A DNA stretch of 64,000 nucleotides, from the NCBI GenBank assembly GCA_950295325.1, contig OX485805.1, positions 38,303,501-38,367,500 of the forward strand, read 5' to 3'. Positions 28,501-59,800 of this stretch are shown here, one piece after another. The position numbers and the translations under genes were made by a program. The notes beneath the pieces were generated by a model, which saw nothing but the letters and a program-made list of their open reading frames with translations, was not told where the DNA came from and searched no databases. Position 1 is the stretch's first letter. Every line of letters starts with the position of its first letter. Origin of the DNA: Polytrichum commune (Eukaryota; Streptophyta; Polytrichopsida; Polytrichales; Polytrichaceae).

Positions 28501-31500
28501 AAACACAGAATGGTCTCTGAATCTTACCTTGCTATCAACCATAAATCTATAGATTCTTTCAGCCATGCACAGAGATGGATACATGCATGCATCCAAGACA
28601 CTGAGCACGGTGAGCAGGACCATTGAGAAACCCAGATGATGATAATGATGAGCTGGTCACATATTTCTTGCAGATGGGAAACTTCATACACTACATGGCC
28701 ACCTTTGTGGCCGGCTTTGCTGTCGGGTTTACGTCGCTCTGGAAGCTTGCTCTTGTGACTCTTGCAGTCGTTCCTTTGATCGCCATTGCTGGTGGTTTCT
28801 ACGCGGCATGTCTTACAGAACACACTGCCAGAACCCAGCAACAATACTGGGAGGCAGGGAGCATTGTTGAACAGGTCCCTGGTTCTTCTCTCCATATCGA
28901 AATCCTGGATCCACTTTATTGAGTATCAGCTTTCAAAATTGGTGTGGCTATACATTACGTATGGTTTGTGAATTTGGTTGCACAAATTCTGCAGTCTGCA
29001 TGCTTTCAAGTAAAATGCAAGGCATAATAGAGTTATCCTCTAACCCAACATGACTTTTGGTCCCTTTTGGTCAAGAGTTGGTTGTTTTGCATACACCACC
29101 TTCCATGTTCGGTAGGGTGCATGTTTGGAGGTAGTGTGGAGGTTTGAACTAAGAACATTCTATGAACATTATATCTAGCGCTATTGAGATTCAAACCCAT
29201 TCTGGCATGTCGAGAGGTCTACAATGAGTTTAGCCCTCAACGAACCGAAACAAGTTGCTCTTCATTCAAATTCAAAACCTACCTCTCCGAGCATGCATCA
29301 CAAGTGGAAAGAAATTGTTGATATTGTATACAAACCAACCAATGAAAAATCATAGGGAGTCAATTCTCCTGACGAAAAGTTCCGTTGATGAGTTAAACGA
29401 TAGCTCCAAGAGTCTTCTGCCCAATCATGCACCTGGTATTGGAGAGACATGTGACTTGGTGTTTAGTCCCTGTTCAGTCAAACTGAAAGAGATTCAAGTT
29501 CATAGACATGTCAAAGACATAGTATTCTTCACACAGCAGATGGAATGGTGTGAGGAAGTTCAATCAGAGGGTATGATGTTTCAGGCAAGGTCATGATGAT
29601 TCTGGGGAAGTTATGATTCGCTGATAAAATTGTGATGGCGTTTCCTGTTCAGGCAATCGCACAGGTGAGAACGGTCTACTCCTTTGTTGGCGAGGCCCGA
29701 GCAGTGGAGTCTTACTCTAAGGCCCTCCAGGCTGCACTGAAGCTGGGGTACAAGGGAGGTTTAGCAAAAGGGCTTGGCATGGGCACAACCTATGGTGTCC
29801 TCTTCTGCTGTTGGGCCCTGTTACTTTGGTATGCGGGAACCCTAGTTCGGAGTGGAGTCACCAATGGCGGCAAAGCTCTCTCCACCATCTTTGCGGTCAT
29901 AATTGGGGGCATGTGCGTTTCCAATTTCTCTAAACCTCGTCCTGCTTGCTTGCAAGAAGTGCTTGTTCATCAGAAAGAAAGAACAAAAGAAAGAACAAAA
30001 GAAAGATGGTTCTCCGATGTTGCCACTGGCGTGAATTATGATGGTGCTTCACCTTCGAGTTGGTCTCAGTCTATATGTAATCTTCAAACGGGCATCACGA
30101 TAATTACAGGACGTGGCAACGTCTTCGTTAAAGGCCTTGGGTTTAAGCCATCCTCTTGTTCGTCACTATATAATGGTCCACCTAAACCCTTTAAGTGGTA
30201 CTGTTTCACAAGATTGCAGGTTTTGTAGATTTTGAAGATTAATTTGGTATTTCAAATTTAATGTGATCCCCATCAATAACACATATTAGTGTAATTGTGT
30301 AGCTACTAGTCTTTCAGCCACAATGTTCCTAAGAATCACATTTCTAAGTCTATGTCAGGGCATCCTCTAAATTTTCATTCATCAGTCTGGAGCACTATTT
30401 TTACAAAAGCCTATGATGGCTGTGGTTGTGGTTTGGGAAGGAAGCAACCATAACATTACTGTAAAAATGCACTAGGGGATCTCATAAAGGTGGACCAGAG
30501 CATTATCTTGCGCCGATTTGGGCACAAAGAAAAATACAAAGAAGTGAATAGGTATTGGTCATCTGGCCCATCTGCTCCTTCAATGGCAAACTAATTAGGG
30601 CTGTGGGCGTGAGTGCAGTGGACTTGGCCAAGCATCGCCAAACCTGCGTGCGTTTGTGAAGGGGAAAGTGGGAGCTTACAAAATCATGGAGATGATAAAA
30701 CAAAAATCAATTATGCAACGTGGCAACGACGACACGGGCAAGCAGCTGCAGAATGTGCAAGGCCAGATTGAGTTCCGGAATGTGGATTTCAGCTACCCGT
30801 CAAGACCTGATGTACTCGTCTTCCGAGATTTTTCCCTCAGCATTCCTCCTGGCAAGACCGTGGCCATAGTGGGCTGCAGTGGTTCGGGGAAGTCGACGGT
30901 GGTGTCTCTGATTGAACGATTCTATGATCCTAATTCTGGTAGGAATTAATCAAGAGGATATATAAATTACATATTATGACTTGTCATTAAACTCTGTGCT
31001 GTCAATGCCGATTCAGACAATGTCTCAAGTGTACATAGCATTCTTAATTGGTAAAGTGAGTGTTCACCCTAGATAAGCATCTTCTGCTTCAAAGTACTCT
31101 TATCTTGGGACAAAGCTTCTGATTTTGAAGAATTTCTCATAAGTAGCATAGTGAGTGTTTGCTTGAAGCTTGAATTATAGAAAGATAACGTCCTATACCT
31201 GCTTACGAATGCTATGTATCAAATGTCAAGAGAGGCAGTAAATGTAAACTATTTCAGAAAACGATCTCAAGTCGACTGTGAATTTGTTCAAAGCAGACTC
31301 CATTATTTGGTGATCTTGAAGCAAAACAAAGAAATTATGGAATTCTTATGATGTGTTGCTCATAGGCTAGAAATTTCAAAAAAATTCTATAGGGAATTTG
31401 CAGCAAAGTTCTCATGCATTGTACATTAACTTATGTCCCAAAGTTTTATGTAAACCCTGTTGCTCAAAAGTCGTAATGAAATTAAGATGATGGGTTGCAG

Positions 31501-34500: not shown

Positions 34501-37500
34501 TGGTGGTCACCTATTCCAATTTCACTGATTTGGTGCACTGAAATCAGTACAGCATTCTTCAACTTGTTATTCATATGTGTTTCATCACTTGTTTGATGCA
34601 GCAAATGTTCTTGAGGGGCTTTTCCGGAGATATAGCGAAAGCACAGGCTGGGGCAAGCATGCTGGCAGGAGAAGCAGTCAGCAACATTCGGACAGTCGCA
34701 GCTTTCAATGCTGAGGATAAAGTACTTCGTCTTTTCAGACACGAGCTTGAGATTCCTATGGAGAAGAGCTTTTGGCGAGGCCAGGTACCAGGTCGTGTAA
34801 TCCCCTCATTGATCCCCTTTCATCAGACCTGTGAACAATAGCAACGGGACTGATAGTCTTCCCAAATATGTCATATCAAATGTTCAGGCCTTCCGTGTTA
34901 AGTCTCATGTAAGCTGTCAAGATGTTGTCCGTTTGTGATTCCGAAGTGAAGGTGTAAGGAGTTGAGAGAGTGGACTGTAGCTCTAACTTATCAAATTTGT
35001 TAACAACAATGGGAGCCCAATACAATACCCTCTATGTGAGCATCTTAGTGTCTTTGATCACATGTGCACTTTTCCTGTTTCAATGGGACCCACTCCCGTG
35101 TCTTCTTCATCTGGACCAGATAGTCTTTGCAAATTTCTCATATATATTCTACAGGCCTGCCACGTAACATTTCATGTCAATCGGTGGATTGAAGATGTTG
35201 TCACCCATTTGTGGTACAGAAGTCATGTTGTAATGATGTTGACTTGTAGTTCCATTCATCAAAACAACACAATATCCTCTATGTGTGAACCTAAGCGTCT
35301 TGGATCACATCTCCCCATGTGGCTGCTTCACTTGAACCACTAAATCATCACAGTATCACATCAGACATTCTTTCTAGATCTGTGAAGACGTTGTCACCAA
35401 TTTGTATTGATGAGCCTGAAGTGATCTTGTAATGAGTGCTTGTTTCATTTGGACCACCTATTCTTCTTCATAGAATTACACCAGTCTTCCCAAAATTTGT
35501 TATATTCTGCAGACAGGTCTGCTATAGAGAATTTGTCAAGATATTGTCACCGATTTGTGATGATGATTCCGAAGTAAACTTGTAACGAGTGTTGTGAGAA
35601 TGTGTCCTTGTAGTTCCCATTCATCATCAGTCCAATATCATCAATGTGCAACTAAGCGTCTTGGATGACATCTCCCACTGTGTCTATTTCAATCGGACCA
35701 CCTGTTCTTCACTGAATCACACCAGATAACCTTCCCCAAATTTGCCACATTCAGCAGACAGATCTTCCATAGAAACTCAGCCAAGACGTTGTCACCGATT
35801 TGTGAAGATGGTTCTTAAGTAAGAGTGGTCATGAATGTTGCGAGCATGTGAACTTCCCACTCACTGGCCCAATACAATATCCTCTATGTGTGCACCTAAG
35901 CATCTTGGACCACATCTCCCGCTGTCTCTGTTTCAGTTCGACCACCTAATGTTCTTCATCACAGAACCACGCCAGATTGTCTTCCCAATTTTGTCATACT
36001 CAATAGACAGGTCTCCCGTTGAAAATTGTCAAGAAGATGTCACCGATTTGTGATAATGACGATTCCCTTCCAAAGCAAGAGTTGTAATGAGTGTTGTGAG
36101 CATGTGGATTTGTAGTTGTATCAAAAAGGGTTTGGGAGCAGGTGGCTGGCCTTGGCTATGGACTCTCCCAGCTCGCCATGTTCGGGGCATACGGACTCGG
36201 CCTCTGGTACGGCTCCATTCTAGTGAAGAACGGTGTCACAGAATTCGGCAACGTCATCAAAGTCTTCATGGTTCTCATAATCGCCGCCTTCGCAGTGGCT
36301 GAAACCCTAGCACTCACACCAGACATCGTCCGAGGAGGCCAAGCACTCGCCTCCGTCTTCGAGGTTCTCGACCGATCCACAGAAATCGACAGCGAGGATC
36401 CCGATGGCGAGGTAGTCCAATCCGTAAAAGGCGACATCGAACTAAGAAAAATCATGTTCGCCTACCCTTCCCGCCCCGAAGTCATCATCTTCAAGGACTT
36501 AACCTTAAAACTCCGCACCGGGAAGAGCCTGGCGCTTGTCGGTTCCAGCGGATCGGGTAAAAGCTCCATAATTGCTTTGATCGAAAGGTTCTACGATCCA
36601 ATTCTGGGCAGGGTGTTCGTCGATGGTCGTGACATCAGAAAATTTAATTTAAAAAGCCTGCGGCGCCACATTGGCCTAGTGCAGCAGGAACCTGCACTGT
36701 TTGCCACCAGCATCTACGAAAACATCTTGTATGGGAGGGACGGTGCGTCGGAGGCTGAGGTGGTGGAAGCTTCGAAGCTTGCCAATGCTCATCACTTCAT
36801 CAGTGCTCTGCCTGAGGGTTATGGAACCCAAGTTGGTGACCGAGGGATCCAGCTCTCCGGTGGCCAGAAGCAGCGGGTGGCGATTGCAAGGGCTGTGTTG
36901 AAGAATCCTGCCATTTTGTTGCTGGATGAGGCCACGAGTGCCCTGGATGCGGAGTCTGAGCAGATCGTGCAGGATGCGTTGGACCACCTGATGCAGGTAA
37001 TTCCTGGAGCTGATGTTGTGGTACTGTCATAGTGCTGCTGATGATGTTGATGATGATGATGATGGTGGACGAGTTCAAGATGGAATTGTTGCAGATTGTT
37101 GGCACGAATTTCCCATTTTAAATTGCGAGGTTTTTGTAATTGACCGTCTTTTCGAGAGGATTTGTGATGAAGTTTCAAATCTGGTCATAGACAAGTCGAG
37201 TAATTTGAATTTCTTTTGAGTTTCTGGATAGTGATGAGCTTCAGCACTGATGAGTAGTTTGAAGTTCTTTCAAGTGTCTGACAAAGTTCAGCTTCAAGTA
37301 TGATGAGTACTTTGAAGTTCTTTTTCAGTTGTCTGACTGTGATCGGCTTCAAGTCTTGAGTAATTTAAAGTCCTTCATGTTTCTGACAGTAATCAGCTTT
37401 AAATCTCGGTAACAATTTACTTCCAAGTGTGCAATTTGAAGTGCTTTCAAGTTTCTGGACAAGTGATCAGCTTCGAATCTTGGTCATAGATTACTCGACA

Positions 37501-38266
37501 GTATTTAGAAGGTCTTTCAAGTTCCTGACAATGATCAGCATCAAATCTCGGTAATTGTTTACTTGAGATCAATTTGAAGGTCTTTCAAGTTTCTGACAGT
37601 GATCAGCTTCAAGTTTCGGTCATAGATTACTCGAAAGTAACCCGGATCCCAGTAAAACTCCGTCCCATCCCATGAGGTTAAGCTGTCTAAGGTTGGAATA
37701 GTGCTCGGATTGTTGCAAATACTTGAATTTCCGGTGCACTCACAGGGGACTCATAGTAGGGGACCCGGTGAGCCGAATATTTTCAACCAACTGTGTGGAA
37801 ATCGAGGGGCTTGTCCTTGGGGAGATAGGTGCAGGTCGGCTTGTCCGCACCTGTTCCAGGTGTTCGCCTCGAAAGCGTGCAATAGTCTTCAAAGGTCCCT
37901 CTAATTGTTGAAATGCCCGTTTCAGGATTATATGTAGATTTAGACCAACTCGGAGATGTAGCAACACCATAATTTACACCGGTGGCAACATCGGAGTCAT
38001 CTCTCTCTCTCTCTCTCTCTCTCTGGATTGTGACACATTTCTACAGAGAGCCAATGTTAACTTTATCACTGTTGGAAATGATACAGGGCCGCACCACAGT
38101 GATGGTCGCGCACCGCCTTTTCACGATTCGAAATGCGAATTCCATCGCCGTGATTCAAGATGGTGCAATTGTTGAAGAAGGCAGCCACCATGAGCTCATG
38201 AGTCGACCCGGTGGAGCCTACTCTACGCTCATCAGGTTGCAACAGCACAGCAGCCAACGCTCATGA
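25541..38266 (+). CDS. Full-size ABCB (P-glycoprotein/MDR type) transporter, 13 exons
   Basis: Exons: 25541-26194, 27470-27524, 27705-27880, 28674-28874, 29653-29912, 30619-30938, 31501-31724, 32393-32769, 33013-33437, 33720-33961, 34602-34784, 36142-36996 and 38087-38266. Phases agree throughout, giving about 1,383 residues in TMD-NBD-TMD-NBD order. NBD1 has Walker [10 protein letters not shown] (534-542), LSGGQ (638-642), ILLLDE (658-663) and AHRLST. NBD2 has GSSGSGKSS (1173-1181), LSGGQ (1277-1281), ILLLDE (1297-1302) and AHRLFT. All catalytic motifs are intact, so the protein should be an active ATP-driven plasma-membrane exporter. Similarity is closest to plant ABCB2/10-like members. Relatives carry auxin or other small organic molecules; the substrate cannot be predicted. 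The N-terminus has an unusual extension of about 155 residues with a His/Gln-rich run at 80-95. Many introns are swollen by tandem repeats. Confidence 0.95.
26237..26975. repeat. Tandem repeats in ABCB intron 1
   Basis: Three direct copies of a unit of about 125 bp start at about 26237, 26358 and 26488. Shared words are ATCC.GTG.TTTT.ATCTACC, GCTTCATGAAGGAGA and ATATCCTGCCAT. A fourth, more diverged copy lies at about 26832-26975. They are non-coding. Confidence 0.8.
27943..28592. repeat. Tandem repeat in ABCB intron 3, about 2.4 copies
   Basis: Units start at about 27943, 28219 and 28471 (period about 250-275 bp). Shared blocks are ACTGATCAATCGACTG, ACATCTGGAAAA, GCCTCACATT.GGAACAT and GAATTTGGAGACATTC. 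The third unit stops part way, shortly before exon 4. Confidence 0.85.
29068..29420. mobile_element. Dispersed repeat B copy 1 (ABCB intron 4)
   Basis: This closely resembles 58806-59135 in intron 2 of the ankyrin gene. Shared blocks in the same order are GTGGAGGTTTGAAC.AAGAAC, GAACCGAAA.AAGTTGCTCTT, GTCCGAGCATGCA.CACAAGT, and a terminal stretch around ATAACTCTGCTGTCTTCTGC (partly diverged here). It is a non-coding interspersed element with no detectable transposase. Confidence 0.75.
31900..32370. repeat. Tandem duplication in ABCB intron 7
   Basis: Two direct copies about 240 bp apart. The block CC.AATG.ATGG.G.CACAT is followed by GGTCATGCCATG, then a lysine-codon-poor AT stretch, then GCAA.T....GTT....GCTTTGTTATGAGCC. 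The second copy runs to within about 25 bp of the exon 8 acceptor. Confidence 0.7.
34040..34318. mobile_element. Dispersed repeat C copy 1 (ABCB intron 10)
   Basis: The segment starts GGTATCATAATTGTAA and contains ATTTGGTGGGTATGTCAAGGTGAG; it ends near ACGATACC. An inverted, more diverged copy lies at about 55880-56165. The GGTATC/GATACC ends suggest short terminal inverted repeats. Probably a non-autonomous DNA element. Confidence 0.5.
34422..34446. repeat. (GAAA)n microsatellite
   Basis: About six GAAA units inside ABCB intron 10. Simple repeat only. Confidence 0.9.
34860..36120. repeat. Degenerate tandem array in ABCB intron 11
   Basis: At least five diverged units, each marked by TTGTCACCGATTTGTGA or a variant (near 34925, 35195, 35389, 35545, 35785 and 36036). 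They share AATATCCTCTATGTGTG.ACCTAAGC, TTGGATCACATCTCCC and ACACCAGATNGTCTTCCC. The period is about 250 bp in the fuller units, with internal deletions in others. The array fills nearly the whole 1.36-kb intron. Confidence 0.85.
37160..37640. repeat. Tandem array in ABCB intron 12
   Basis: Roughly six to seven diverged units of about 65-80 bp. Shared words are TTTGAAG.TCTTTCAAGTTTC, TGACAGTGATCAGCTTCAA and TCGGTCATAGATTACTCGA. The last unit runs into the 5S-like relic. Confidence 0.85.
37630..37741 (+). pseudogene. 5S-rRNA-like relic
   Basis: The stretch contains CCGGATCCCA..A.AACTCCG, GTTAAGC and GGAATAGTGCTCGGAT in the order and near the spacing of plant 5S rRNA (CCGGATCCCATCAGAACTCCG, GTTAAGC, AGAGTAGTACT.GGAT). 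About 13 extra bases lie between the second and third blocks. The 3' part of 5S is poorly matched. It is a decayed 5S fragment or a 5S-derived SINE head in the last ABCB intron, not a working rRNA gene. Confidence 0.55.
38001..38024. repeat. (CT)12 microsatellite
   Basis: Uninterrupted CT dinucleotides lie about 60 bp upstream of the last ABCB exon. The CT tract may strengthen the polypyrimidine context of that acceptor, but it is too far upstream to be the tract itself. Confidence 0.95.
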
Positions 38267-40819: not shown

Positions 40820-43800
40820 ATGGCAGATGTAGCCCAAGAGGCTGTGGCAGAGGTAATAGAGGTAGCGGAAGAGTCATCTGCAAACAACCCCGGCTACTCT
40901 GAGGAACCTGATGAGGCCACCAAGAGTTTCTTTCTGCAGCAAACTGTAAGGCTTCCAACATTTTCCCCTTCTGAGCTTTCAACTACACTAATTATGGTAA
41001 ATACTGTGGGCCACACCATTGAGTTTTTTTCCGCGCACTAAAAGCATTTAGAATAATACCGTGGTTGCACACTATTTATCGACCCACAGTTTGTAACATT
41101 AAAGGCCCAAATTCTGGGTTATACTGTTTTTGTTGGAATTAAAATGAGTTGGATGTGCCTTAGATGGATACGTTCTCTCTAAACCCACTTCTCGTAGGAT
41201 ATGAAGCATGCAATTAGTGCATTTGATTAGCAAATCCAAATCATACACGTAGCCATGCGCCTCATGGTTTTTGGAGCTCATATGAATATCTTGTTCATTA
41301 TCAAAAGTCAAGGTTCTCATGCTCATTAAGTGGTCACATAGCTCAAACCCCTCCCCCCCTCAATCAGGCTGACTATTGAGCCTAGAATGGTTTGAGCACG
41401 TAGAACAATTTCTTTTAAGCACATGTGTAATTGATGTCAAATCTTAGACCCACATACCACTCAAATACAGGTGTCCAAATTATTGTTGAGTTTGATTTAG
41501 ACACGTTTGACTTGTGTGCATTTGAAAGACTTGCACCACCACTTTCTTGCATGATGGTGTACACTGTGGGCCACACTATAAGGCTGTTCAGGGTAAGTAA
41601 CCCTATACATTTGCGCACACTAATGACCGTAATCAGTATACTGGAATCTGTGTGCCAATATATAGTCTCTGTCTATTTGCATGCGACGTTAATAAGGAAA
41701 AAATAAAATGCTGCCAAGTTATAATCATACATGCATGGTCATGAAAGTTTCAAGGAACTGAATTTAAAACTTGGAGCCCGCATGCAGATGTACAGAATAC
41801 GAGACCCTAAAGCAAGCCTCGAATTCTACTCAAAAGTCCTGGGCATGACGTAAGAGAATAACCCCCCTCTTACAAATCTATCAGTTCCAATTACTATCTT
41901 GACATCCAACATAATACACAATTTGATACATGATACATTTACGAGTACATTTACCTTCTTGACAGCCTTAGTGCTAGAATTAATTAGGTATGTTATCGAT
42001 GCAGGTTGATAAAAAGACTTGACTTTCCAGGGCCCAATTTCAGCCTGTACTTCCTTGGCTATGAGGTATGTGACAATTGCAGAGGCCTATCCTGATCGAT
42101 GAATCTTTTTGCAACAATTTTCTACTGATTCCTCTGTGCTTATCTTTCATGTACCACGAGAAAACGAGAGCCGAATTTTTGAACCTAGAGAAGATGGTCA
42201 TTGATGAGTTGTTATGGTTGGCTTTTTCAGAATGTTGCAGACATTCCCATGGTTCCAGCTGAGAGAGTGGCATTTCTGTTCCAACGTAAAGCCACTCTGG
42301 AATTAACTCAGTAAGCTTCTCACCGCATCAATTGGCATGTACACCGTTTATTACCTTGGTGTCACTTACTGTTTGGAGTTACACAGTGCTATAATCTTAT
42401 ACTGTTAGTGTTCTATAATGTCTACCAACCATTTTGACCTTCGTTGGTACTGTATGAGATCTATAGAAAATAGTTATAGCATTGTGCATTCCAAATAGTA
42501 AGTGACACCAAACATCATAAACGGTGTAGTCCTTTTTGTGTGCTTCCCAATTTTTAGAATTGTAATTCAGCCTGTCCGCTCTTAACTCTAGAGCCCCTGT
42601 TCCTCAGTAGCAAGTTATAACAAATGGTGTCACGGATTGTGTGGCATGTAGTAATTGGGGTACAGAATCGGACCCAAACTTCAGAGGCTATCACAGTGGC
42701 AATAGCCAACCACTAGGCTATGGTAAGTGGTTGTCATCATGTCCAAGCTCCAATTTATTGCACATTAGAATATCTACTAGGTATAGTATATTCTGGAGCT
42801 TTGGAACAGCAACTACGCATTGATGCAGTCGCCGTTCCGAAGGTTCAAAATGGCCGGTGGTGAATGGCATGTTGGGGTGAATGCATGGTCTAGGTCGGCA
42901 TGGGCCCATACTTACTTAGTCTCCTACAAGCTAAGTACAATGATTATGGTAAATATTGTAGGCCACAATATTGGGCTCATTTCCACATTAAAAACAATGT
43001 TGACAATACTATGGGTGTAAACTATTTACCAACCCATCATATTTAACACCAAAAGTTCACAATATGAGTTGCAGTATTTCTATTAGATTGAAAAATAATG
43101 TGCATTTGAAATACGTCCAACCTAAAGGGAAGGAATGGGCATTGAGCATACAACGGGGACATGACAAGTGTAACTAGGGTTGCACATTAGTTTCTTGCGT
43201 GAATCGTGCTCACCTTTTGAAAGGAAGGCCATACTCCTTACCGTGCATTATGGACACCATGATTAATACAAGGAAAACATGCTCACATTCATGTCAATAT
43301 ACAAATACAAATGTTTTTTTCTTCTTCTTTCTATTCTTGCGTGATGGTGTAAACCCAACAAACTTTTGATGATGAATACCTAATTTCAGGACACATTGGG
43401 ATTGTTGTTGATGATGTCTATAAAGCATGTCAGCGCTTTCAAAGACTAGGAGTTCCATTTGTGAAAAAGCCCGATGATGGTAAGTTGAGGTTTATTACCA
43501 TCATTCCCACACATGCTCTCTGTTTTCAAGACAAGTTTTTTGGCATCAAGTCTACTCAATAGGCATAACCCTGGGCATGACATTCTTGAACAAGTGTTGG
43601 GGTAGACCCCCAAGATATACGTCTTGGAGGTATTCACAATGGACATCCTGTGCGGATCCTTTTTGCACTTCTCCTTGAATTCAATCTACAACTAAATGTT
43701 GGTTTCGCGTCCTATTAAGGTAGGTGACTATGAGTGTGAGAACTAATCGGAGCCTTGTCAATACTCTATGTCAGCATTCAATCCTAAAAACGAGGCATCA

Positions 43801-44226: not shown

Positions 44227-44989
44227 AGAGCCACAAGATATCACAGCCACCACAAGGATGCTGGCAAGTGTAAGTGCTAGCAGGTTTCTTGTTTCCTGTT
44301 TGTTTGCAGATGTCGAGCCTCTCAGGTATGACGCCTTTTGGATATGTAAAGCCAAGCCAAGCCACTTTCATTCGTCTTTCCTTTTGTTGGAATATTGTTC
44401 TCTATGTGTATCATAGTTTCAGTATTACCAAATGCCTTCCTAAGCTTCTGTGGCCAAGCTACGATATGGAACTGAATAGAGGATCAATCACACGGGCAAA
44501 GAAGGAGCAGTCTATTGATACATGAGGTCTCAAATGGCTACACAACTTCATGAGCAGGAATGGAGGCTTGTAATCCACACAACCCAACCTCTTCAACTAT
44601 TTTGGATACTAATCTGGGCTTGCGCCGTCCCAGCCCATTGCACCCGTGCATATGAATTCATGGTCATGTGTCATCTCGCATCATTCGCTGAACATATTGT
44701 AGTCATTAGTTGGTCATTTTGGAACTTTGGAACAGTGATTGCATCAACGCCCGTGCACCGTGTGCAAATTTGACTTCTTTTCGTTCTGATGAATGTGTCT
44801 CCTTTCTATGGCTTCTTGGTCATTTCAACCTGTGTTCCTTGGGTTTTGTTATTTTCAAACATTATTCCGAACAATACTTGTGAACAAATTCTTCCACATT
44901 CTCAACAAATTGTTCTGGTAGTTGAGGGTTGTAGTTTACTTTCCTTGGTTCCATATTTGAGGGATGAGGAGGGATAAGATGCATATATG

Positions 44990-45335
44990 CCAACCACAAC
45001 CATGTCCACTACTCTTACTTGCCCAACTACAATATGAAGTGTAGTTGAGAGTGGTTGCGATGGTTGTAGTTTGCTTTATGTGGTTTTATTTTGTTTGTCG
45101 GTTACTATGTAGCTTTGGAGAGAGATTCCAAGGCCAAAGCATGGGAGAGGATTTGTAGGAGGCAACTGCTCTTGGACAAACTTTCTAGTAGAATCCAAAA
45201 ATTGTTTGTCTCCACTCGGTGGATTGTGCCAATCAGAGGGACAACAATTGAGGTCAAATCCACTCTTGAACTATAATTGCCTTGCATGTAAATGAAAATA
45301 ATCGTAGTTATGCGTAAACACCCTTTCCCAAGCAG
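44990..45335. mobile_element. Dispersed repeat E copy 1
   Basis: Matches 58157-58516 over about 340 bp. Shared blocks are CACAACCA, ACTACTCTTACTTGCCCA, TTCCAAGGCCAAAGCATGGG, AGAGGATTTG.AGGAGGCAA, TTTGTCTCCACT and ATTGAGGTCAA.CC.ACTCTT; both end near GTAAACAC.C. A frame runs through part of it, but the other copy does not keep that frame. Family not recognised. Confidence 0.7.
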
Positions 45336-45954: not shown

Positions 45955-47240
45955 ATGGTTCATGTCTCTACAAGGGAGTGACCCCCCATGGGGCAAACCC
46001 AATACTCAATGTTACCATTTTTGCATATGAAACTGCTTTGCAATCTCGTAACATTTTACACAATGATGTAGACTTAGAAGACATATCACCATCACCCTTG
46101 AGAAGAGAATTATTTGGTTTTATTAGAGTTGTGATTCCAAAGGTCAACTTGTACCTATTTTGTGCTATGGATTGGAAACTTCACATCTTCTCAGGGTAAG
46201 CAGTCAATACCTCTTCGACTCAAACCATCGTATTCTTGCATTCTCATCGCTCTCACAATTTGATCAATAGAGAGGCAACATAATAGTGATTTACTAGCTC
46301 CTCCGCTTTGTGGATGGATCTGAATCTTCAAAAGCTTGATGGGCAAATCAATGCTCATTCTGGCAAACCCAATACACAATGTCACCATTTTTTCTTATGA
46401 AACGGTTTTGCAATATGATACCTAGCCCACAAGGATGTAGGGTTACAACTCATGTGTGACCAGTGGATTGATTCAGATCATATTAATCCTGCTTAAATTG
46501 TGCTCGAGAAGAAACCTCTTTGGTGTTGCTGAAGTTATGATTCCAAACATCACATTCTTGCATCCTCATCTCCCTCACAATTCAATGACGAAGTAGACAA
46601 TGTAAAGAATGCGGATGTCAGCTTTCCAAAATGTGCACCAGTACTTCCTCCGCTTTGTGGATGAATCCGAAGCTTCAAAAGCTCGACCAGATCAATGCAC
46701 AGTTGATAATCTCCACTGCGTGTTTGTCTTCTCTTGCCTTGCAAAATCCTTGCACATGTGTCCCATCCACACATTGACGACACATTTTGATAGGTTGACA
46801 AATTGTTCTACTGCAAATTCTCTCAGGGTAAGCAGTTGACGATAACTCTTCGACGCGAAACATCACATTCTTGCATTCCTCCTTGTCGCTCTCACAATTT
46901 GATGAAGAACCAGGCACCATAGCTGAGATGGGCATGAACCCGCATGCAAGCAGAAAACCTAACCCTTTGCCCTTCAATGATAACTCTTCAATTTGAAACA
47001 CCACATTCTTGCATTGCTCCTCATCGCTGTCACAATCTGATTGTGCATGATCCAACACCAACGTATGATATGCTTCCACCTGGCTCAAACTGGGCAATAT
47101 AAGACAACACATGCAGATGCCACGTTCCAAATGTCGCGTACCCAACCCTCCACTTTGTGGATGCATTAAAAGCTTCAAAAGCTCAACCAGATTAATGCGC
47201 AGTAGTTGGTTGGCGCCTTAATTTCATCACAATCTCTTTC
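45955..47240 (-). pseudogene. Tandem fragments of an unrecognised coding family
   Basis: Three diverged units recur here. On the minus strand they read L-L-K-(L/I)-x-IHPQSGG in three places (near 46310, 46670 and 47150), each followed by unrelated or broken sequence. Two also contain a SD.(E/D)(E)-x-C-K-N-V-x-F-x-(I/V)EELS segment. A block GKGLGFLLACGFMP at about 46950 matches the intact copy at 48.1 kb. Stops and frame changes separate the pieces, so I call these gene fragments. Confidence 0.5.
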
Positions 47241-47257
47241 AATTTCTCCGCAAATCA

Positions 47258-47530
47258 TCAGAATTGTCCGCACCCACTGGTGACAATTTGAGCATCAGAT
47301 TTGAAGTCCGACAAGCGCTTAAAGTGCCCCATTCTAAGACCCATGTGACCTGGTCCAAGATCAACCTTGTACAAGAAATGGTTGGTCTTCATCCACATCT
47401 TCATCAAGCATTGGTAGAAGTCATGGCTCACTGTGACGAACACACGGTTGCACTTGTACAGCATCTGCTTGTCCACTTTGGGCATGAACCCACACGCAAG
47501 CAGAAACCGTAACCCTGTGCCCGCAGTCTG
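47258..47530 (-). pseudogene. Chimeric partial copy of the 47.8-48.2 kb reading frame
   Basis: Residues from GLRFLLACGFMP to the end pair residue for residue with the 48.2-kb frame, with no indel and the same terminal stop after GCG(Q/H)F. Upstream, however, the DNA is fused to a KPWPDCG-coding piece of the type at 50.26 kb. The fused ATG frame is shifted relative to LLACGFMP, so the copy is broken at the junction. Confidence 0.55.
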
Positions 47531-47800
47531 GCCACGGCTTCTCCAGCACCATAGCTACAATGTGTGTGTGGACAATTAAGAATGTAACCTTGTAAAGCAG
47601 CCGAATTCGTCGAGGAATTCTAGGTTGGTGGCCATGGCTTCTCAAACACCATAGCTACAACTTTGGATGCAACTTGTGAAGGATGCAAGCCTGTGAAGCA
47701 GCAGAATTCGTCGAGGAATCCTAGGTTGATGGCCATGGCTTCTCAATCATCATAGCTGCAATATGAATGCACCTATGAAGGATGCAACCCTGGAAATTCA
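47530..47800. repeat. Tandem repeat of about 110 bp, about 2.5 units
   Basis: Repeats of CAGCAGAATTCGTCGAGGAAT.CTAGGTTG.TGGCCATGGCTTCTCA..CACCATAGCTACAA. The same unit is amplified at 50260-50690. On the minus strand each unit contains ATGGTG.T.GA.AAGCCATGG, the start of the KPWP coding piece. Confidence 0.8.
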
Positions 47801-47839
47801 CAAATATCTTTCGATTTGTCCGCAAATATCCGCAAATCA

Positions 47840-48241
47840 TCAGAAATGTCCGCACCCACCAGTGATAACCCGAGCGTCAGACTCGATGTCCGACAATCGC
47901 TTGATCTGCCCCATTTTGGGGCCAATGTGTCCTGGCCCAAGCTCAACCTCATACAAGAAATGGTTGACCGTCATCCACACCTTCATCAAGCATTGGTAGA
48001 AGTCATGGCTGGCCGTGACGAACACGCGGTCGCACTTGTACAGCATTTGATTGTCCAATTTGGGCATGAACCCACATGCAAGAAGGAACCCTAACGCTGT
48101 GCCTTTCATGTCTTCAAGACGCCATCGCTCTACAACCCCAAGCCAAGCGAACAGGTCATCAACGTTGCGCTTGTTAACAATGTACTCCGCGAGCTCGGGT
48201 GTCCATCCCTTCCAGCCCGGTGCCAACTCCACTGCGTTCAT
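47840..48241 (-). CDS. Hypothetical protein, most intact member of local repeat family
   Basis: A 133-residue frame starts MNAVELAPGWKGWTPELAEY, continues through a Leu/Arg-rich helix (DDLFAWLGVVERWRLEDMKG, about 28-47) and LGFLLACGFMP (about 50-60), and ends DARVITGGCGHF. I do not recognise a family. Three things argue for real coding. Codon use is GC-richer than in the flanks. The copy at 47.26 kb keeps the C-terminal 70 or so residues with no indel. Both copies share the same stop. The ATG sits inside the 48.2-49.3 kb tandem repeat, so expression is uncertain. It may be one exon of a longer gene including the 50.26-kb frame. Confidence 0.4.
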   Translation of the reverse strand: MNAVELAPGWKGWTPELAEYIVNKRNVDDLFAWLGVVERWRLEDMKGTALGFLLACGFMPKLDNQMLYKCDRVFVTASHDFYQCLMKVWMTVNHFLYEVELGPGHIGPKMGQIKRLSDIESDARVITGGCGHF

Positions 48242-49330
48242 GTCAATCTCCTCTACCTACAATTTTCCAACTACAAATTCACCAACTGATCCATAAAAAC
48301 CATAACACTGGGAGGGGAGAGCCTGGAGAGAGACAGGGAGAGATGACACCGGCTGTAAGGTTGGTGTGAATGGGAGATGTTTCACCGTTGATCAAAGCCG
48401 CAAACTCAAATGTAAACCCGAGGTTGGTTATTGAATTATCAATGAAGGACAAGGTCTTCAAAATTTGACAAAGGTTCATGTTCGTCTTTTCCACCTATAA
48501 TTTCCCAACTACAAATTCACCAATTGATCCAGTGAAACCATAATGCTGGGAGGGGAGAGCCTGGAAAGAGAGATGACGTCGACATAAGGTTGGCGTGAAT
48601 GGGAGGTGCTTCACCTTGATCAAAGTCGCAAACTCAAATGTAAACCCCATGTAGGTTATTGAAGCATCAATGAAGGATAAGGTCTACAAACTCCGTCAAA
48701 GGTTCATGTCAGTCTCCTCCACCTACAATTTCCCAACTCTAAATTCACCAATTGATTCAAGAAGCCATAACAAGGGGCCTGGAAAGAGAGAGAGATGACG
48801 CCCGACCGTAGTAAGTTGGCGTGGATCAGAGATGCTTCACCCTTTATCGAAGTTGCAAACTCAAATGTAAAGTCAAGGTAGGTTTACGAAGCAGAAACAA
48901 GGCCTACTATCTTTATTAGAGGTTCGTGTCACTCTCCTTCACCTACAATTTGTCAACCACAAATACACCAATTGGTCTAGAAAAGTAGAACATTAGTATG
49001 AAATACAGCGAGAGAGATTTGAGAAATGAGAGAATGAGAAAAAGAATGAGAAACGCTTCACCCTCGATCAAAACTGCAAACTAGAATGTAGAGCATGGCT
49101 CAATGACAAGGCTTACTACTTCCTATCGGAGGTTCGTGTGAGTCTCTTCACCTCTAATTTCAAACTACAAATTCACCAACTGGTTCAAACAACTACAAGA
49201 ATGGGAGGGAGAATCTGAATGAGAGAGGGATATGAGAGACTCTTCACCCTTGGTCAGAGCCACAAACTCACATGTAAACCCGAGGAAAGTGTATGAAGGA
49301 TGGTTCAGGGACAAGGTCTACTGCGGTCTC
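48240..49330. repeat. Tandem array of about 230-bp units, 4-5 copies
   Basis: Each unit carries TTCATGTCA.TCTCC, CACCTACAATTTCCAACTAC, AAATTCACCAATTGATCCA, GAGAGATGACG, GCTTCACCCTTGATCAAAG and GCAAACTCAAATGTAAACCC. Units diverge progressively with distance. On the minus strand the first unit is open as a 71-residue frame (48279-48494), but others are interrupted. The array separates the 48.2-kb and 50.2-kb coding-like frames. Confidence 0.85.
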
Positions 49331-49920
49331 TTTTGGAAAAAGGTGAAGGCCTGGGAGAAGGGCCCTCTAGTATCCGGTGGATGTAATACGTGTGCGAAAC
49401 TGATAGGAACGTAGCAATGGGATTTATCAATTCGCACCTTAGTATTCTAGGTAGGATTGTGATAGAGTGCCAAGAGGTGCTCTCAAATGACGTTGACACC
49501 CAATGAACAAATACATAGAATGTTCTTCGTTCAAACCTCCACGCCGACTCCAAGGATGCACCAAAAACTTACAGAACATGAAAAGCTATATTAGCAAAAC
49601 AACTAACTCTTGACCAAAACCTGGGTTGAACTAAAAGTAGGACTCTAATACTGGGTTATGCCCACAATATTGTTGAACTTAGAGCTTCGAAACCTGTGGT
49701 GTCAATATTCTTAATCTTAAAAAACTCTGCTGTCTATTTACTTCCTTGATTTGACTTATTTGAATCAGTATCGCATTCTTGTTAAAGTGGCAGTTTGTTG
49801 GTGAGAAATTGTCACCTCGAGGTTGAGTAGGATGGTTGGCTGGAATCATCAGTATACATGACAATAATATTTGAGGAGGGAATTGATTCATATAAAGCGA
49901 TTCACTCCAGGGAACACCTC

Positions 49921-50265
49921 TCAATATATGAGTGAAATTATGATGCTGTTTTTCAGCTTTCCGGAGAGAGATCGCAAATGCACCTTCCATGCCGGCACTT
50001 TCTTCTTAGGTTTCGGTCGAGGTGGACCACGAATGACGAACAGCCTTCCTTCCTTGAGACGCTTCGCCACCCACTGGCCTGTCGTTGTGTTGATCTTGGA
50101 GGCGCTCAGGGTTAGGTAAACCTCGTGGTCGCAGATGTAGTGGCGGTGATACTCGTCTTTCGAGATGCCGCAGGAATGTGGGAAGGGGACTCTGTCGTAG
50201 GTCGCAGGTTTGAAGTTGATGCTCAGCGGGCACCCACAGTCTGGCCATGGCTTGTCGATCACCAT
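49921..50265 (-). CDS. Hypothetical protein or exon (KPWPDCG type)
   Basis: A 114-residue frame begins MVIDKPWPDCGCPLSINF. It contains several Cys and His residues (HSCGISKDEYHRHYICDH, about 30-47) and ends in a Lys/Pro-rich basic stretch (RGPPRPKPKKKVP). The C-terminal residues after LSGKLKN look like read-through into intron or flank. Composition is GC-rich compared with the spacer. No family recognised. The Cys/His cluster could bind metal; this is only a suggestion. Its first codons are repeated in the adjacent 110-bp arrays and in the chimera at 47.5 kb. Confidence 0.4.
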   Translation of the reverse strand: MVIDKPWPDCGCPLSINFKPATYDRVPFPHSCGISKDEYHRHYICDHEVYLTLSASKINTTTGQWVAKRLKEGRLFVIRGPPRPKPKKKVPAWKVHLRSLSGKLKNSIIISLIY

Positions 50266-50690
50266 AGCTGCGACTTGTTACTGGACTATGATGAAGAATG
50301 TCATAACCCTGTGAAGTAGTAAACTTCGTCGAGGAATTCTAGGTTGCTGTCCATGGCTTCTCAGATCACCATAAGTACAACGTGAATGCAAATATGAAGA
50401 ATGCGACCCAGTGAAACAGCAGAATTTGTCGGAAAATTCTACGTTGATGGCCATGCCTCCTCAATTACCATGGCTACAACGCGAATGCAACTATGAAGAA
50501 AGCAACCTTGGTGGAACAGCGGAATCCCTCTTATTCTATGAAGATTGCAACCCTGTGAAGCAGCAGAATCCCGAGAGGAATTCTAGGTTAGTAGCCATGG
50601 CTACTCAATCACCATGGCTACAATGCGTCTGCAACTATGAAGAAAGCAACCCTGTGAAACAGAATTCCTCTCGCGTTTCTAGGTTTGTGT
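50260..50690. repeat. Tandem repeat of about 110 bp, about 4 units
   Basis: The same unit as at 47530-47800: CCATGGCT..TCAATCACCATGGCTACAA, ATGCAACTATGAAGAAAGCAACC, CTGTGAAGCAGCAGAAT and GAGGAATTCTAGGTT. Direct orientation, with some units shortened. Confidence 0.85.
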
Positions 50691-50746
50691 ATCCAGTGAG
50701 CAGAAAGAAACATCAGCACAGCTCCTCTACATCTCCGAATCTAGGA

Positions 50747-51590
50747 AACTCCGAAGGATCTCACACACAAGAATGGACCTAGAAATGACATACAGTAAAA
50801 AGATCTACACTGAAAAGAAAAAGGAGGATGCATTGTTTGGGTTGCATAAAAATCCATCCCATAGCATCATCTGCCAACTTGTTGTAATCCCAATGCTTGA
50901 CTGCCACACACTGCAACACTCCATTTCCCTGCTGTTTTGTTGAGCATTCTTGAAGGAACGCCCTAGCCAATTCACTTCCGTGGAGGAAAACTAAGGCACC
51001 GATGTTGTGATCCAAAGTCATCACGGTATTTTGAGCAATTAAAAACACGAAGTTCTCAAGTGGAGCCTAAGAAATTCGGAAGCATCTCACAGACAGGAAT
51101 GGACCCAGAAACGAAGCCCTGGCGGACCACATGACACCGAACTGCATCCTCAGCGTATAAGTCATTCATGAGTCGTTCATAAGAATGTAAAACGGATTAA
51201 TCTGCCATGATGTGAGTCTCAAGTCACCTTCCTGGTCCCCCCTCAAAGAAATTTTAAGTAGCCAAATTAGGCGCTGGCTGAGGATCGAAAATTGGCCGAG
51301 CTGAGTCCACTTATGTTCACAAAACCCCGAAATGACAAGAAAGTCTGGAGCTGGACTCTGGAAGCAACTCGAACCTAACTCGAAGAACCGATCTATCAAC
51401 CTGGGTAAGGATCTCCATTAATCTACTCATCCCCACTACAACCACCAAACCACAACATGAATTTAGTTTGACTAGATGGCAGATCAGAATCGCTAAGGTT
51501 TGACCCTGTGCAGTGAGTCCATACTGGGGTAATGCGAAACGGTTCGTAGGTCGTTTAGTTTTCAGTCAATAACGGCCCCTCAACGAAACT
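50747..51590. repeat. Large direct duplication, left copy
   Basis: Pairs with 52865-53790. Shared blocks include AATCCATCCCAT.GCATCATC, GAGCATTCTTGAAG.AAC.CCC, ACAGACAGGAATGGACCC, CATAAGAATGT and CGAAACGGTTCGTAGGTCGT. On the minus strand the left copy keeps an 89-residue frame (50779-51048, containing ARAFLQECSTKQQ and LADDAMGWIFMQPKQ) that is broken in the right copy. A short direct repeat (GGAAATTCGGAAG..CTCACAGACAGGAATGGACC) brackets the first about 320 bp of each copy. Confidence 0.75.
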
Positions 51591-52149
51591 GGAGACACAG
51601 ACACGTGACCACTACCTAACCTTCTTCCTTTAGGGTTTACTTTGTGATTCATATGGGTATTACTGGCCATGGCTACATTCACTGGCTTAAGTCTACTAAC
51701 TTCACCTTCGCTTCACGATGCAAGCCTAACTGATCCATACAAATTAACACGTGACTAATCCACCTCACATCCGGATCCACTATAGAATCTGAGGATGTAT
51801 ATAGAACCCTAAAACATAGAAATTGAGGATTTACATGAAATCCTAAAAAGATGTAGCAGCAAGCTCCACCCCGTGATAACAACCTCGTCCAGCAACGCAA
51901 ACTTCATTATTATAGTAATTCCCTGTTAACTGATGAAGCTACTTCGACGTTGCCATCGTGAAACCTGCGAAGGTCAAGAATCATTGCAGTTTCTGGAAAT
52001 GGGCGTTTCTTAAATTAGGTAGATTGAGCTGAGCAAGTTATGGTAAGTTGCACATTACGAAAGTGGGTGTAGAGCAGTTCAATATGTTCTTGACTGTGTG
52101 GGCCTAAGTAGGTACTTAGATTGATCATCAAGTGGCCCATCCAGGAAAA

Positions 52150-52330: not shown

Positions 52331-52864
52331 AAGGCATCATTGATTCACAGTAACTTAATTAAGCATCTATATTGGTTCGCAGAATTCACCTGTGCGGAAT
52401 TCCAGTAGATTCTAAGAGCACTAAGGTGGAGATTCATAGACACTTAGGTGGAGATTTAGAAAGGAAGAGCGCAAGAAGATCACGAAGTACTATTGGAGTC
52501 AGTACGTTTCGCATTGAGTACGTTGTTCAAGATTAGTCACTTGATTAGTTAAGAGTAGTTAGATTGATTAGTGATAGAAGTTTCCTCTTCCACATCAGCG
52601 GCAGTGAAGAGGATGAATAAGACGAAGCAACTCTGCTCGAGGGTAGATGAGTATGCAAGATGACTGCGAGTGTGTAGTGTATGTAGCTGATAAATAGGTT
52701 ATCAAGAACTGAGAAAGAGATGATTGCCTGAGTTACTTACGAGAAATAAAATGCATATTGTACCAAGCGTGACTGTTAATGAGTGATTCGTAAAGCATCA
52801 TGTGTATGTATGTGTAGATCTATCAATGAGTGAATGTTTAATGATCGGTCAAATTGTGTTGTAA

Positions 52865-53790
52865 ACAGCAAGTACTCAAGTGGCCTTAGGAAATTCGGAA
52901 GGACCTCACAGACAGGAATTAATGGACCCGGAAATAATCATACCGTAAAAAAACAATCTACACTGGAAAAACCAAGAACAGAGAAAAGAACAAAAAAATG
53001 AAGAGGAGGATCCATTCTTTGGGTAGCATGAAAATCCATCCCATCGCATCATCTGCCAACTAGTTGTAATCCAAATGTGAGACTGCCACACACTTCGTCC
53101 CTCCATAATTTCCCCTCCTATTTGATTTTGCTGAGCATTCTTGAAGTAACACCCTAGCCGGCCCATTTACTTCCTTGGAGAAAAACTAATTATGGCATCG
53201 ATGTCGTAATGATACAAACTCATCACAGTAATTCGAACGTATTTCTGTGGGGCCTAAAAAACTCAAAACTAACATCCCACAGACAGGAATGGACCCTTAG
53301 TGTAATCATTCTTTCATAAGTCCTTCATAAGAATGTGCAATAGATTGATCAATCTGCCATATGAGAATGAGAATTTGCCGTCCAGCTCCAGTTCTCATAT
53401 GGTCGCACTGTAAATTTACGTTCGTCAAAAACAAGAAAAACTGAGCACAAAATTCTGGAGCTGGAACCTCGAAGCCTGCAACTCGAATAACTGATCTCTC
53501 AATGCAACCTCATGGATAGAATTACTGCAAGTTGTTATAATCTGCTCATGATCCCACTGCAACAATCCACACACAACCAAAATGAATTCAGCATGTCAAC
53601 TAGATGGCATATCAGAATCGCTGGCAAGCAAACATGGTCAGAGGAGCCAAGATTTCGCTTCGTCGTGATTCGAGCAAGGGAAGGTCTAAAATTAACTTGT
53701 GCTTTGAGTCCATGATAGTGAGGTTGTACTGCGAAACGGTTCGTAGGTCGTTTAGTTTCCACTCAACAACGGCCCTTCAACGAACCTGGC
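52865..53790. repeat. Large direct duplication, right copy
   Basis: Partner of 50747-51590, with many small indels. The minus-strand frame of the left copy is interrupted here by a stop (AAC-TAG-TTG where the left copy has AAC-AAG-TTG) and by indels. The two copies flank about 1.3 kb. Confidence 0.75.
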
Positions 53791-53852: not shown

Positions 53853-54076
53853 ACTACACAAAATATGATATTCGGTGTGACTTCCTATTTGGAATTACAC
53901 AATGCTATAATTGTCTACTGTACATCTCGTTTTTTACCAACCATGGTCGAATTGGTTGTTTGGACATTATAGAACGCTAACATCTTAACTTGGTAAAAGA
54001 GTACATTAATAATAAAAAGATATAGGAACATGTAACTCCAAACAGTAAGTAACACTAAATATCATATTTTGTGTAG
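53853..54076. mobile_element. Foldback MITE, family A copy 3
   Basis: About 224 bp with inverted ends CTACACAAAATATGATATT and AATATCATATTTTGTGTAG. Next come the family's internal inverted blocks TATTTGGAATTACACAATGC and AACTCCAAACAGTAAGT. It sits between two copies of the GGGTGAGTTTCC terminus of the neighbouring TIR family, so it is probably nested. Confidence 0.8.
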
Positions 54077-54106
54077 TGTGTTGTTAGATGTGTTCTCATG
54101 AAGATT

Positions 54107-56854: not shown

Positions 56855-59800
56855 ATGGCCCTGCCGCATACGATGGAGGAGGAGGAGGGAGAAGGCGATG
56901 ATTTGGACTTGCAACCTGCAGTTCCGGAGGATGTGCAAGCAGTCATGGTTGCTGCCGAAGAGGGAAATGCTTCGGCTCTCTCTCGTGCTTTAGGTGAAAT
57001 AAAAAAAAAGTCTTGTGTTTCCTCTGCAACTCGCACTTGAGATCTTAGATTTGCCCTCTTCCCACCTTTGCTAAAACCCTACACCCTAAACCCTAGGACA
57101 CTCTTTCGACGTATCCGAGGTTTCTTCCATAAACCTTTCGTCCCATTCCTGACCTATCAATGTGCTTCATCTCTTCGCGGTTGCTGCGATTTTTTTCTCC
57201 TAACAAAAAGTCTTCAGCAATTTAATTCTTGAGGATTGGTGTGGCTTCGCCCATCCTTTGGAAGTGGTTAGGATTAGCTCGTATCAACGTTGTTCGTACT
57301 AGCTTTGTGGGATTTCTAGGGACTTCCGAGCTGCTTTTATTAGGCATCATCTCTCGGTTCGACCTATGAGTGAATTTTTCTCAGCTTGGATTGTCTATTC
57401 CTTTTACCGAGTCACATCAAGAGTTGGCTTATCACCGAATTTTCAGAAATTCTTAGAAATTGTATACGAAGCCAACCCTTTGCATTCTCCAAGCACATGC
57501 GGTCTCAAGTTGCAGGGCGCCTTTGAGCATGCAATGAGTGGGAAGCCTAAACTCTAGAACCTTTTTTCGACGTATCCGAGGTTACTTCCATACACCTTGG
57601 GTCCCTGCCTGACCTTTCAATGCGTGCGCATCATCTTTTGCATTCGGTGCCGATTTTCTTTAGCTGACGGAACAAACAGCTCGTATTTTGCAGATGAAAA
57701 TTTGTTCATATCTGTTACTTAGTGGCAGTTATAGTATTTTCCGAGTCGCTCTTGCTAGGCATCATCTTTCAGTTTGACCAATGAATGAATTTCCTCAGCT
57801 TGGATTCTCCATTCCTTTCGACGAGTCACATCAAGAGTTGGCTTCTCACCAAATTCTCAGAAATTCTCTCAATTGGATCCCACCCTTTGCATTTCTCCAA
57901 GCACATGCACGCTCAAGTTGCGGAGCGCCTTGGAGCATGCAATGATTGGGACTACCATTCGTTGAGGTTTTAGCAAAGTTCTGAGAAGATGGCGGCAGCC
58001 CATATGATTTCAAATTGATGGTCAGGTTTCTGTGCTAATGTCCTACTGCATGAAACCCTTTGTATCCATAAAGATCACAACGCAGAACCTGCCATGGCTT
58101 TCTATTGGCTCTATTTTTTGGGGATTAGGGAGGTTAAGGGGCATCAAAGACAATCATCACAACCACAACTACTCTTACTTGCCCATCTACGATACAAGGT
58201 GTGGTTGGTTGTGTGTACTTTACTTTCTTTGATTTTTTTTTGTTTGTAGTTACCTATGTGGCACCAGTAGAGGATTTCAAGGCCAAAGCATGGGAGAGGA
58301 TTTGAAGGAGGCAATGACTCCTAGACAAGCTTTTCACTAAAAGCCATAAACTTTTTGTCTCCACTTCCCGCATTGCACCAATAGGAGGGACGATCATTGA
58401 GGTCAAGCACACTCTTCAACTACAAGAGTAGTTATGTGGAAACGAAAATATTAGTAGTTGTGGTTGAAAGTGGGCCCAAATCACAACCAGAGTACTTGTG
58501 TGTAAACACGCCTTCAGAAGTCTGCGCAGTTGATCACACTTAAGGGTTAGGGTTCAGGGTTTTAGGGTTTAGGGTTTAGGGTGTTGAGGTTTTAGGATCA
58601 CCTTTATTGTTGATGATGCAAGTTACTGTTCTTCTTTTTACTGATGAAGGGTTCTTTTTCATTTTCTTGATGACAGCCAACCTCACAAGCGGTGTGGACT
58701 GTGAGGGTGAAGATGGTGATCGTCCCCTGCATATAGCTTGTCTCTATGGGCACAACTCCTGTGTGCAGGTACTGTTGTTATCCTTTAATTCAACTAGTAT
58801 TCTAGTCAGGAGTTGATTGTTTTGCGGGAATTTTGATTCATATTTGGTAAGTTTTTGGTGGTAATGTGGGGGTTTGAACAAAGAACAATTTATATTGGGC
58901 ATTGAGGGTCAAACTCATTTTGGCATACCAAGAGGTGCTAAAATGAGTTTGACCCTCAGTGAACCGAAAGAGGTTGCTCTTCATTCAAATTTAAACACTA
59001 TGTCCGAGCATGCACCACAAGTAGAAAGAAATTATTGATTTTCTATTTAAAACAACCAATAAGAGATCATAGGGGACCAACTCACAGTGAAAACTCCCAT
59101 TGAATTATAGGATAACTCTGCTGTCTTCTGCAGTTTTTGAGATTTAGGGTATAAGGCTAAGGAGTGGGCAGTGTCATGAATATTTTAGAGAGAAAATACT
59201 TTAGAGGTATGACATTATTGGACAGATGTCTACATGTAGTCTAACAATGAAAAAAAAAAACCTTTCATGTCCCTCCCATCCTTCTTTGTAAAACTCTCGT
59301 CTCTCTCCCTTCCTTCCTACCTTGTGCACTCCTTGTTGCCCTCATGTACATTGTGTTCAAGTAAGCTTTAGTAAGTTCCAAGGAAAAAGCAAAGGCATCC
59401 AAGAAGCAATGGAATAACCAATGAAAGTACAAGACAGCGCAAATACTAATTAACACAATAAATACTACATTGACAGCCTTCATTGTTCAATGCTCCCTTC
59501 AATTTAATGCTAATGGTCATGATTCTCCATGTGATGCTCCTCATGACTGAATAGGTCCCTATCCCAATTCTTCTAGCCTTATCCCTACCTTTCATACCCC
59601 TCATTGCGTGTTGCTCTCATTGGTTATAGTGGATTCATCCGCAAATATTTATGGATCTCCCTGCACGCATGCCCTTAAAGAGAACAAGGCCCACAAATAT
59701 ACATACATAGATACATATATGTGTATATATATATATATATACACCCTGTATACTGATTCTAGAGTGGCATTCAACTGGATAAAATCTGGTAACATATTCT

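Follow-up and report, generated by a model that had tools for sequence, protein, structure and literature searches.

Within the window (the whole 64-kb stretch of DNA that was analysed, which reads as land-plant-like nuclear DNA), positions 45955-50690 hold two open frames on the minus strand, designated p114 and p133, together with a partial copy of p133 and several tandem arrays. Read along the minus strand, the order is an array of 101-bp units, p114, a spacer that contains part of a dispersed repeat, an array of 228-bp units and p133, followed by a second 101-bp array, the partial copy of p133 and finally a degenerate repeat region in which the IHPQSGG frames are located (Table 1). As a whole, the p114 frame, which contains the motif KPWPDCG, comprises 114 amino acids (49921-50265, minus strand). 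Of the bases in this stretch, 64% belong to local direct duplications, compared with 14% for the whole window, and the sliding-window maximum of duplication coverage (66%) overlaps the stretch; smaller tandem duplications are located elsewhere, in or near the ABCB transporter exons (26.2-28.6, 34.9-36.1, and 37.2-37.6 kb). The inventory given by the original prediction was confirmed: an intact frame of 133 residues, a KPWPDCG frame with a Cys/His cluster, several tandem arrays around coding-like frames, start codons within repeat units, which were found at the unit edges, and three copies of IHPQSGG (46299-46357, 46647-46703, and 47147-47203) are all present.

Table 1 Features of positions 45955-50690 of the window, listed in minus-strand order (a slash marks the candidate exon edge)
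Feature	Position	Strand	Remarks
Array of ~101-bp units, four of them start-bearing	50233-50689	-	Ends in the first p114 codons
Probable coding exon 1, p114 codons 1-94 (MVIDKPWPDCG...PAWK)	49984-50265	-	Cys/His cluster; codon score lower beyond codon 95
Remaining open p114 frame, not coding-like	49921-49983	-	Starts with candidate donor AAG/GTGCAT
Dispersed-repeat fragment	49485-49635	-	Longer copies at 29065-29357 and 58784-59074
Array of ~228-bp units, five units	48236-49321	-	Ends at p133 start
p133 frame, 133 amino acids, probable coding exon 2	47840-48241	-	Open from 48256
Array of ~101-bp units, 2.7 copies	47529-47796	-	Opens second cassette
Junction, p114-like to codon 11 versus p133-like from codon 47	47520-47521		Out of frame
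Partial p133 copy, last 87 codons and stop	47258-47521	-	Homology runs to ~47223
Degenerate repeat region, IHPQSGG frames, not coding-like	46178-47203		
48-bp p133 relic	46929-46976		Within degenerate repeat region

The units of the arrays have been preserved to different degrees. The final 228-bp unit spans the edge between a putative intron and exon 2 (TTGTAG/GTAGAGGAG...ATG); all five units retain AGGT, and the ATG is kept in three of them and replaced by ACG in two. The two 101-bp arrays are related to each other. YAG is located just 5' of the ATG in six of seven 101-bp units, and the frame MV.EKPWP stops by about ten codons in all units except the last one of each array. Given that two 228-bp units lack the ATG and that a stop follows after few codons in several 101-bp units, the notion that the repeats shift starts and promoters as they amplify is unsupported. 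It is also very improbable in our view that the arrays grow over the 5' edges of exons, multiplying splice acceptors and start codons, and that their length would set the N-terminus. The copies within the stretch show 64-89% identity, i.e. they differ by 11-36%, which suggests that the duplications are old.

Length was rejected as evidence for coding, since chance is sufficient to produce such frames: among 300 sequences of 6.5 kb generated by simulation, 15% had a longest ATG-initiated ORF of 133 amino acids or more and 39% one of 114 amino acids or more. The longest ATG ORF of the stretch itself (163 amino acids) is an IHPQSGG frame. The telling measures are codon usage and dN/dS. In a codon model trained only on five coding stretches of the same window, which scored from -0.06 to 0.16 when each was left out in turn, p133 and p114 obtained scores of 0.174 and 0.175, respectively. 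The two frames occupy ranks 1 and 2 among 73 stop-to-stop ORFs of at least 70 amino acids between 38 and 64 kb (median score -0.07), and both score above all 712 simulated ORFs with a minimum length of 110 amino acids, which reached no more than 0.053. With a score of 0.182, one of the antisense frames of p114 matches the sense frame, which means that base composition contributes to the p114 score. The partial copy of p133 scores only 0.045. The predicted protein-coding character of p133 and p114 is borne out by codon usage and, in the case of p133, also by dN/dS (see below); both frames are very probably coding, now or recently.

Codons 10-47 of p114 encode eight cysteine and histidine residues (C10, C12, H30, C32, H40, H42, C45, and H47), a cluster that suggests metal binding. 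The AlphaFold2 models, made for p114 alone and for p133 with its copy, were unusable (mean pLDDT values of 39.8 and 36.7). In Pfam (E up to 10) and NCBIfam (E up to 1), neither p133 nor p114 nor the copy matched any family, the zinc-finger families included. For p133 and p114, no relative was found in the PDB, where all matches had E values of 0.88 or worse, or among viral contigs, and for p133 none in the GTDB prokaryote genomes and plasmids. Nothing usable was obtained from the literature on moss genomes or on Marchantia, including its sex-chromosome repeat genes.

The IHPQSGG frames, which had also been taken as coding, were rejected as genes and are regarded as repeats. Their codon scores (-0.10, -0.11, and -0.05) are to be compared with the median of -0.07 given above, and the differences between copies, small in number, are distributed over positions 1/2/3 of the HPQSG frame as 3/1/4, 7/1/4, and 5/1/1 and do not favour third codon positions. 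In addition, a related copy of the repeat adjoining IHPQSGG carries stops. A point against the repeat-only view is that the HPQSG cores (57-59 bp) are open in all three copies. For an IHPQSGG frame of 167 amino acids, the only matches in Pfam and NCBIfam were far below the cut-off (E 6 and 0.023).

The second copy of p133 had been described as keeping about 70 residues and the identical stop without indels. The stop and the gap-free alignment hold, and the size has to be corrected to 87 codons, over which the amino acid identity to p133 is 74% (84.7% nucleotide identity over 275 bp). The two sequences differ at 42 sites, with 12, 7, and 23 differences at codon positions 1, 2, and 3, respectively, and the method of Nei and Gojobori gave a dS of 0.45 and a dN of 0.125. 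The dN/dS ratio between the copies, which the original prediction had singled out for calculation, is 0.28 (bootstrap 0.13-0.56; one copy pair, 87 codons, p133 only) and hence not near 1. In 5000 simulations of random change, a ratio as low as this was obtained in 0.4% (P 0.004), the number of amino acid changes was equal to or below that observed in 4%, and the frame stayed stop-free in 27%; the Fisher P for the p133 pair is 0.0002. A ranking of 66 duplicate pairs from the window by codon-position skew placed the p133 pair second (P 0.007), a value that by itself would be lost on correction for 66 tests. The first pair lies in the ABCB region, and the one just behind p133 (P 0.008), at 14.3-14.8 kb, is of no known coding nature. 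As judged from two copies, p133 was probably under constraint during some of the period after the duplication, and a constrained frame (dN/dS below 1), as expected of a lineage-specific plant gene, was found in p133.

The fusion of two different frames predicted near 47.51 kb proved to be real and is a non-homologous junction at 47520/47521. In the copy, the first in-frame ATG of the p133 tail would yield 75 amino acids, and the ATG of the array at 47529-47796 is out of frame with this tail; the copy is probably a truncated pseudogene because its start is out of frame. The claim of ongoing shuffling is not supported in view of this out-of-frame start codon at the junction, the dS value, and the divergence of the copies.

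The codon score of p114 changes along the frame, from 0.15-0.26 in the five blocks up to codon 95 to -0.02 in codons 96-114. Codon 94 is followed by the donor-like site AAG/GTGCAT in phase 0, which lies at the 96th percentile of the GT sites on this strand (donor side only, scored with consensus weights). Upstream, p133 is open only to 48256, at TTGTAG/GTAGAGGAG, likewise in phase 0; the stop that limits it is the TAG of TTGTAG/GTA in the same phase. The candidate splice sites are moderate matches to the consensus. Joining codons 1-94 of p114 to p133 as two exons separated by an intron of about 1.7 kb would result in a protein of 232 amino acids (94 + 138), the N-terminal part of which would contain the Cys/His cluster and probably bind metal. 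We lean towards a single two-exon gene of this structure, combined with a history of tandem duplication.

This history can be read from two alignments, of 47520-47793 with 50233-50511 and of 47247-47521 with 47829-48103. The homology continues beyond the stop codon, to 47797 on the side of p133, where it adjoins the second array, and to about 47223 on the side of the copy; an equal score was found in 0.2% of 2000 random stretches. From the order of the cassette and the homology that extends from the junction in either direction, 50511..47797 and 47796..~47223 look like one tandem duplication. In the proposed sequence of events, the order of which we infer, slippage or unequal crossing over would have duplicated in tandem the sequence that spans the 5' edges of both coding stretches, from which the 101-bp and 228-bp arrays would have arisen, and the p114-p133 cassette would have been duplicated in tandem into the two segments named above. 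The downstream cassette presumably lost about 2.1 kb, from codon 11 of p114 to codon 47 of p133, and would thereby have become a truncated, probably dead copy. The junction at 47.52 kb is explained by one tandem duplication and an internal deletion. The origin of the arrangement looks ordinary, and the sequence itself looks real: it probably represents a genuine plant gene that has no recognised domain and lies next to a truncated duplicate, among old tandem repeats.

In a different reading, p133, p114, and the copy could be pseudogene pieces of an older family, whose codon bias and dN/dS predate the decay. The dense, diverged duplications, the truncation of the copy and the loss of frame with its start, the broken units of the upstream arrays, and the adjoining IHPQSGG frames without coding character would agree with such decay; p133 and p114 are however still open and score like the exons of this window, and p133 and the copy can be aligned across 87 codons without a stop or frameshift, so that we consider a fully decayed gene rather unlikely. 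The ATG of each frame is located at the inner edge of an array, as would be the case if p114 and p133 were two small genes, each having promoter and start codon in its own array. The 228-bp units also hold pyrimidine-rich stretches, and such stretches are likened to plant leaders. On the other hand, the p114 codon score decreases 20 codons short of the stop, at a site resembling a splice donor, which suggests that p114 is an exon and not a whole gene and makes two independent genes improbable.

That a transposon (Pack-MULE or Helitron type) captured gene fragments, which were then rearranged within it, is the least probable of the explanations considered. Pieces of different frames have indeed been joined and re-used, but a tandem duplication plus one deletion is enough to account for the layout. 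Helitrons have a 5' TC and a 3' CTRR end with a hairpin. The search for long terminal inverted or direct repeats flanking the stretch detected none. Its significant pairs come from the two copies of a hairpin element (42.4 and 53.9 kb), two other inverted matches, 12 and 16 bp long, are no better than chance (E 0.82), and TIR or LTR flanks were rejected on these grounds. The hairpin element at 53853-54077 is MITE-like with 88-nt arms that are 75% complementary, and the related copy is located at 42358-42530.

Tandem genomic duplication over an intron-exon edge is known in plants: in a potato RdRp gene, it is reported to have given a new intron that was detected (PMC4974935). If the two-exon model holds, the 228-bp units would similarly span an intron end and an exon start, whereas here there are five diverged units. 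Lineage-specific (orphan) genes are a known kind of plant gene (PMC9305701), and p133 and p114 resemble them in being coding-like without a domain recognised in Pfam or NCBIfam. Capture of gene fragments by Pack-MULE, Helitron, and CACTA elements is known in plants (PMC1947982); the joined fragments of coding frames are reminiscent of it, but no long flanking inverted repeats were found here and the arrangement is consistent with duplication and deletion in place. If the preferred two-exon gene is transcribed, it would be a plant gene without recognised domain whose history of local duplication, deletion, and fusion is readable, and a usable case of exon-edge duplications that alter gene structure; if it is not transcribed, the locus would be an ordinary decayed duplicate.

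Among the neighbours of the locus are the ABCB transporter exons at 25.4-37.0 kb on the plus strand, the final long stretch of which best matches the solved structures of the plant ABC transporter B family members 1 and 19, and a GNAT acetyltransferase frame at 14.8-15.7 kb on the minus strand. The domain scans comprised 96 distinct frames out of 177 frames of at least 70 amino acids in the window; ankyrin repeats were matched by one of 91 ORFs picked from 3.2-24.9 kb and 38.5-63.7 kb (E 1.6e-5). Rfam gave no match in the whole window. Arrays of 53- and 68-bp units are located directly downstream of the ABCB exons (37198-37640). The dispersed repeat listed in Table 1 is about 290 bp long and occurs in three copies, the third being the minus-strand fragment. 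Adjoining the stretch, chained blocks at 50742-51592 and 52863-53789, about 2.1 kb apart, share 70-83% identity, and direct repeats with 72% identity at 44945-45312 and 58105-58462 are separated by 13 kb. A degenerate interstitial repeat of the TTTAGGG type is present at 58543-58596.
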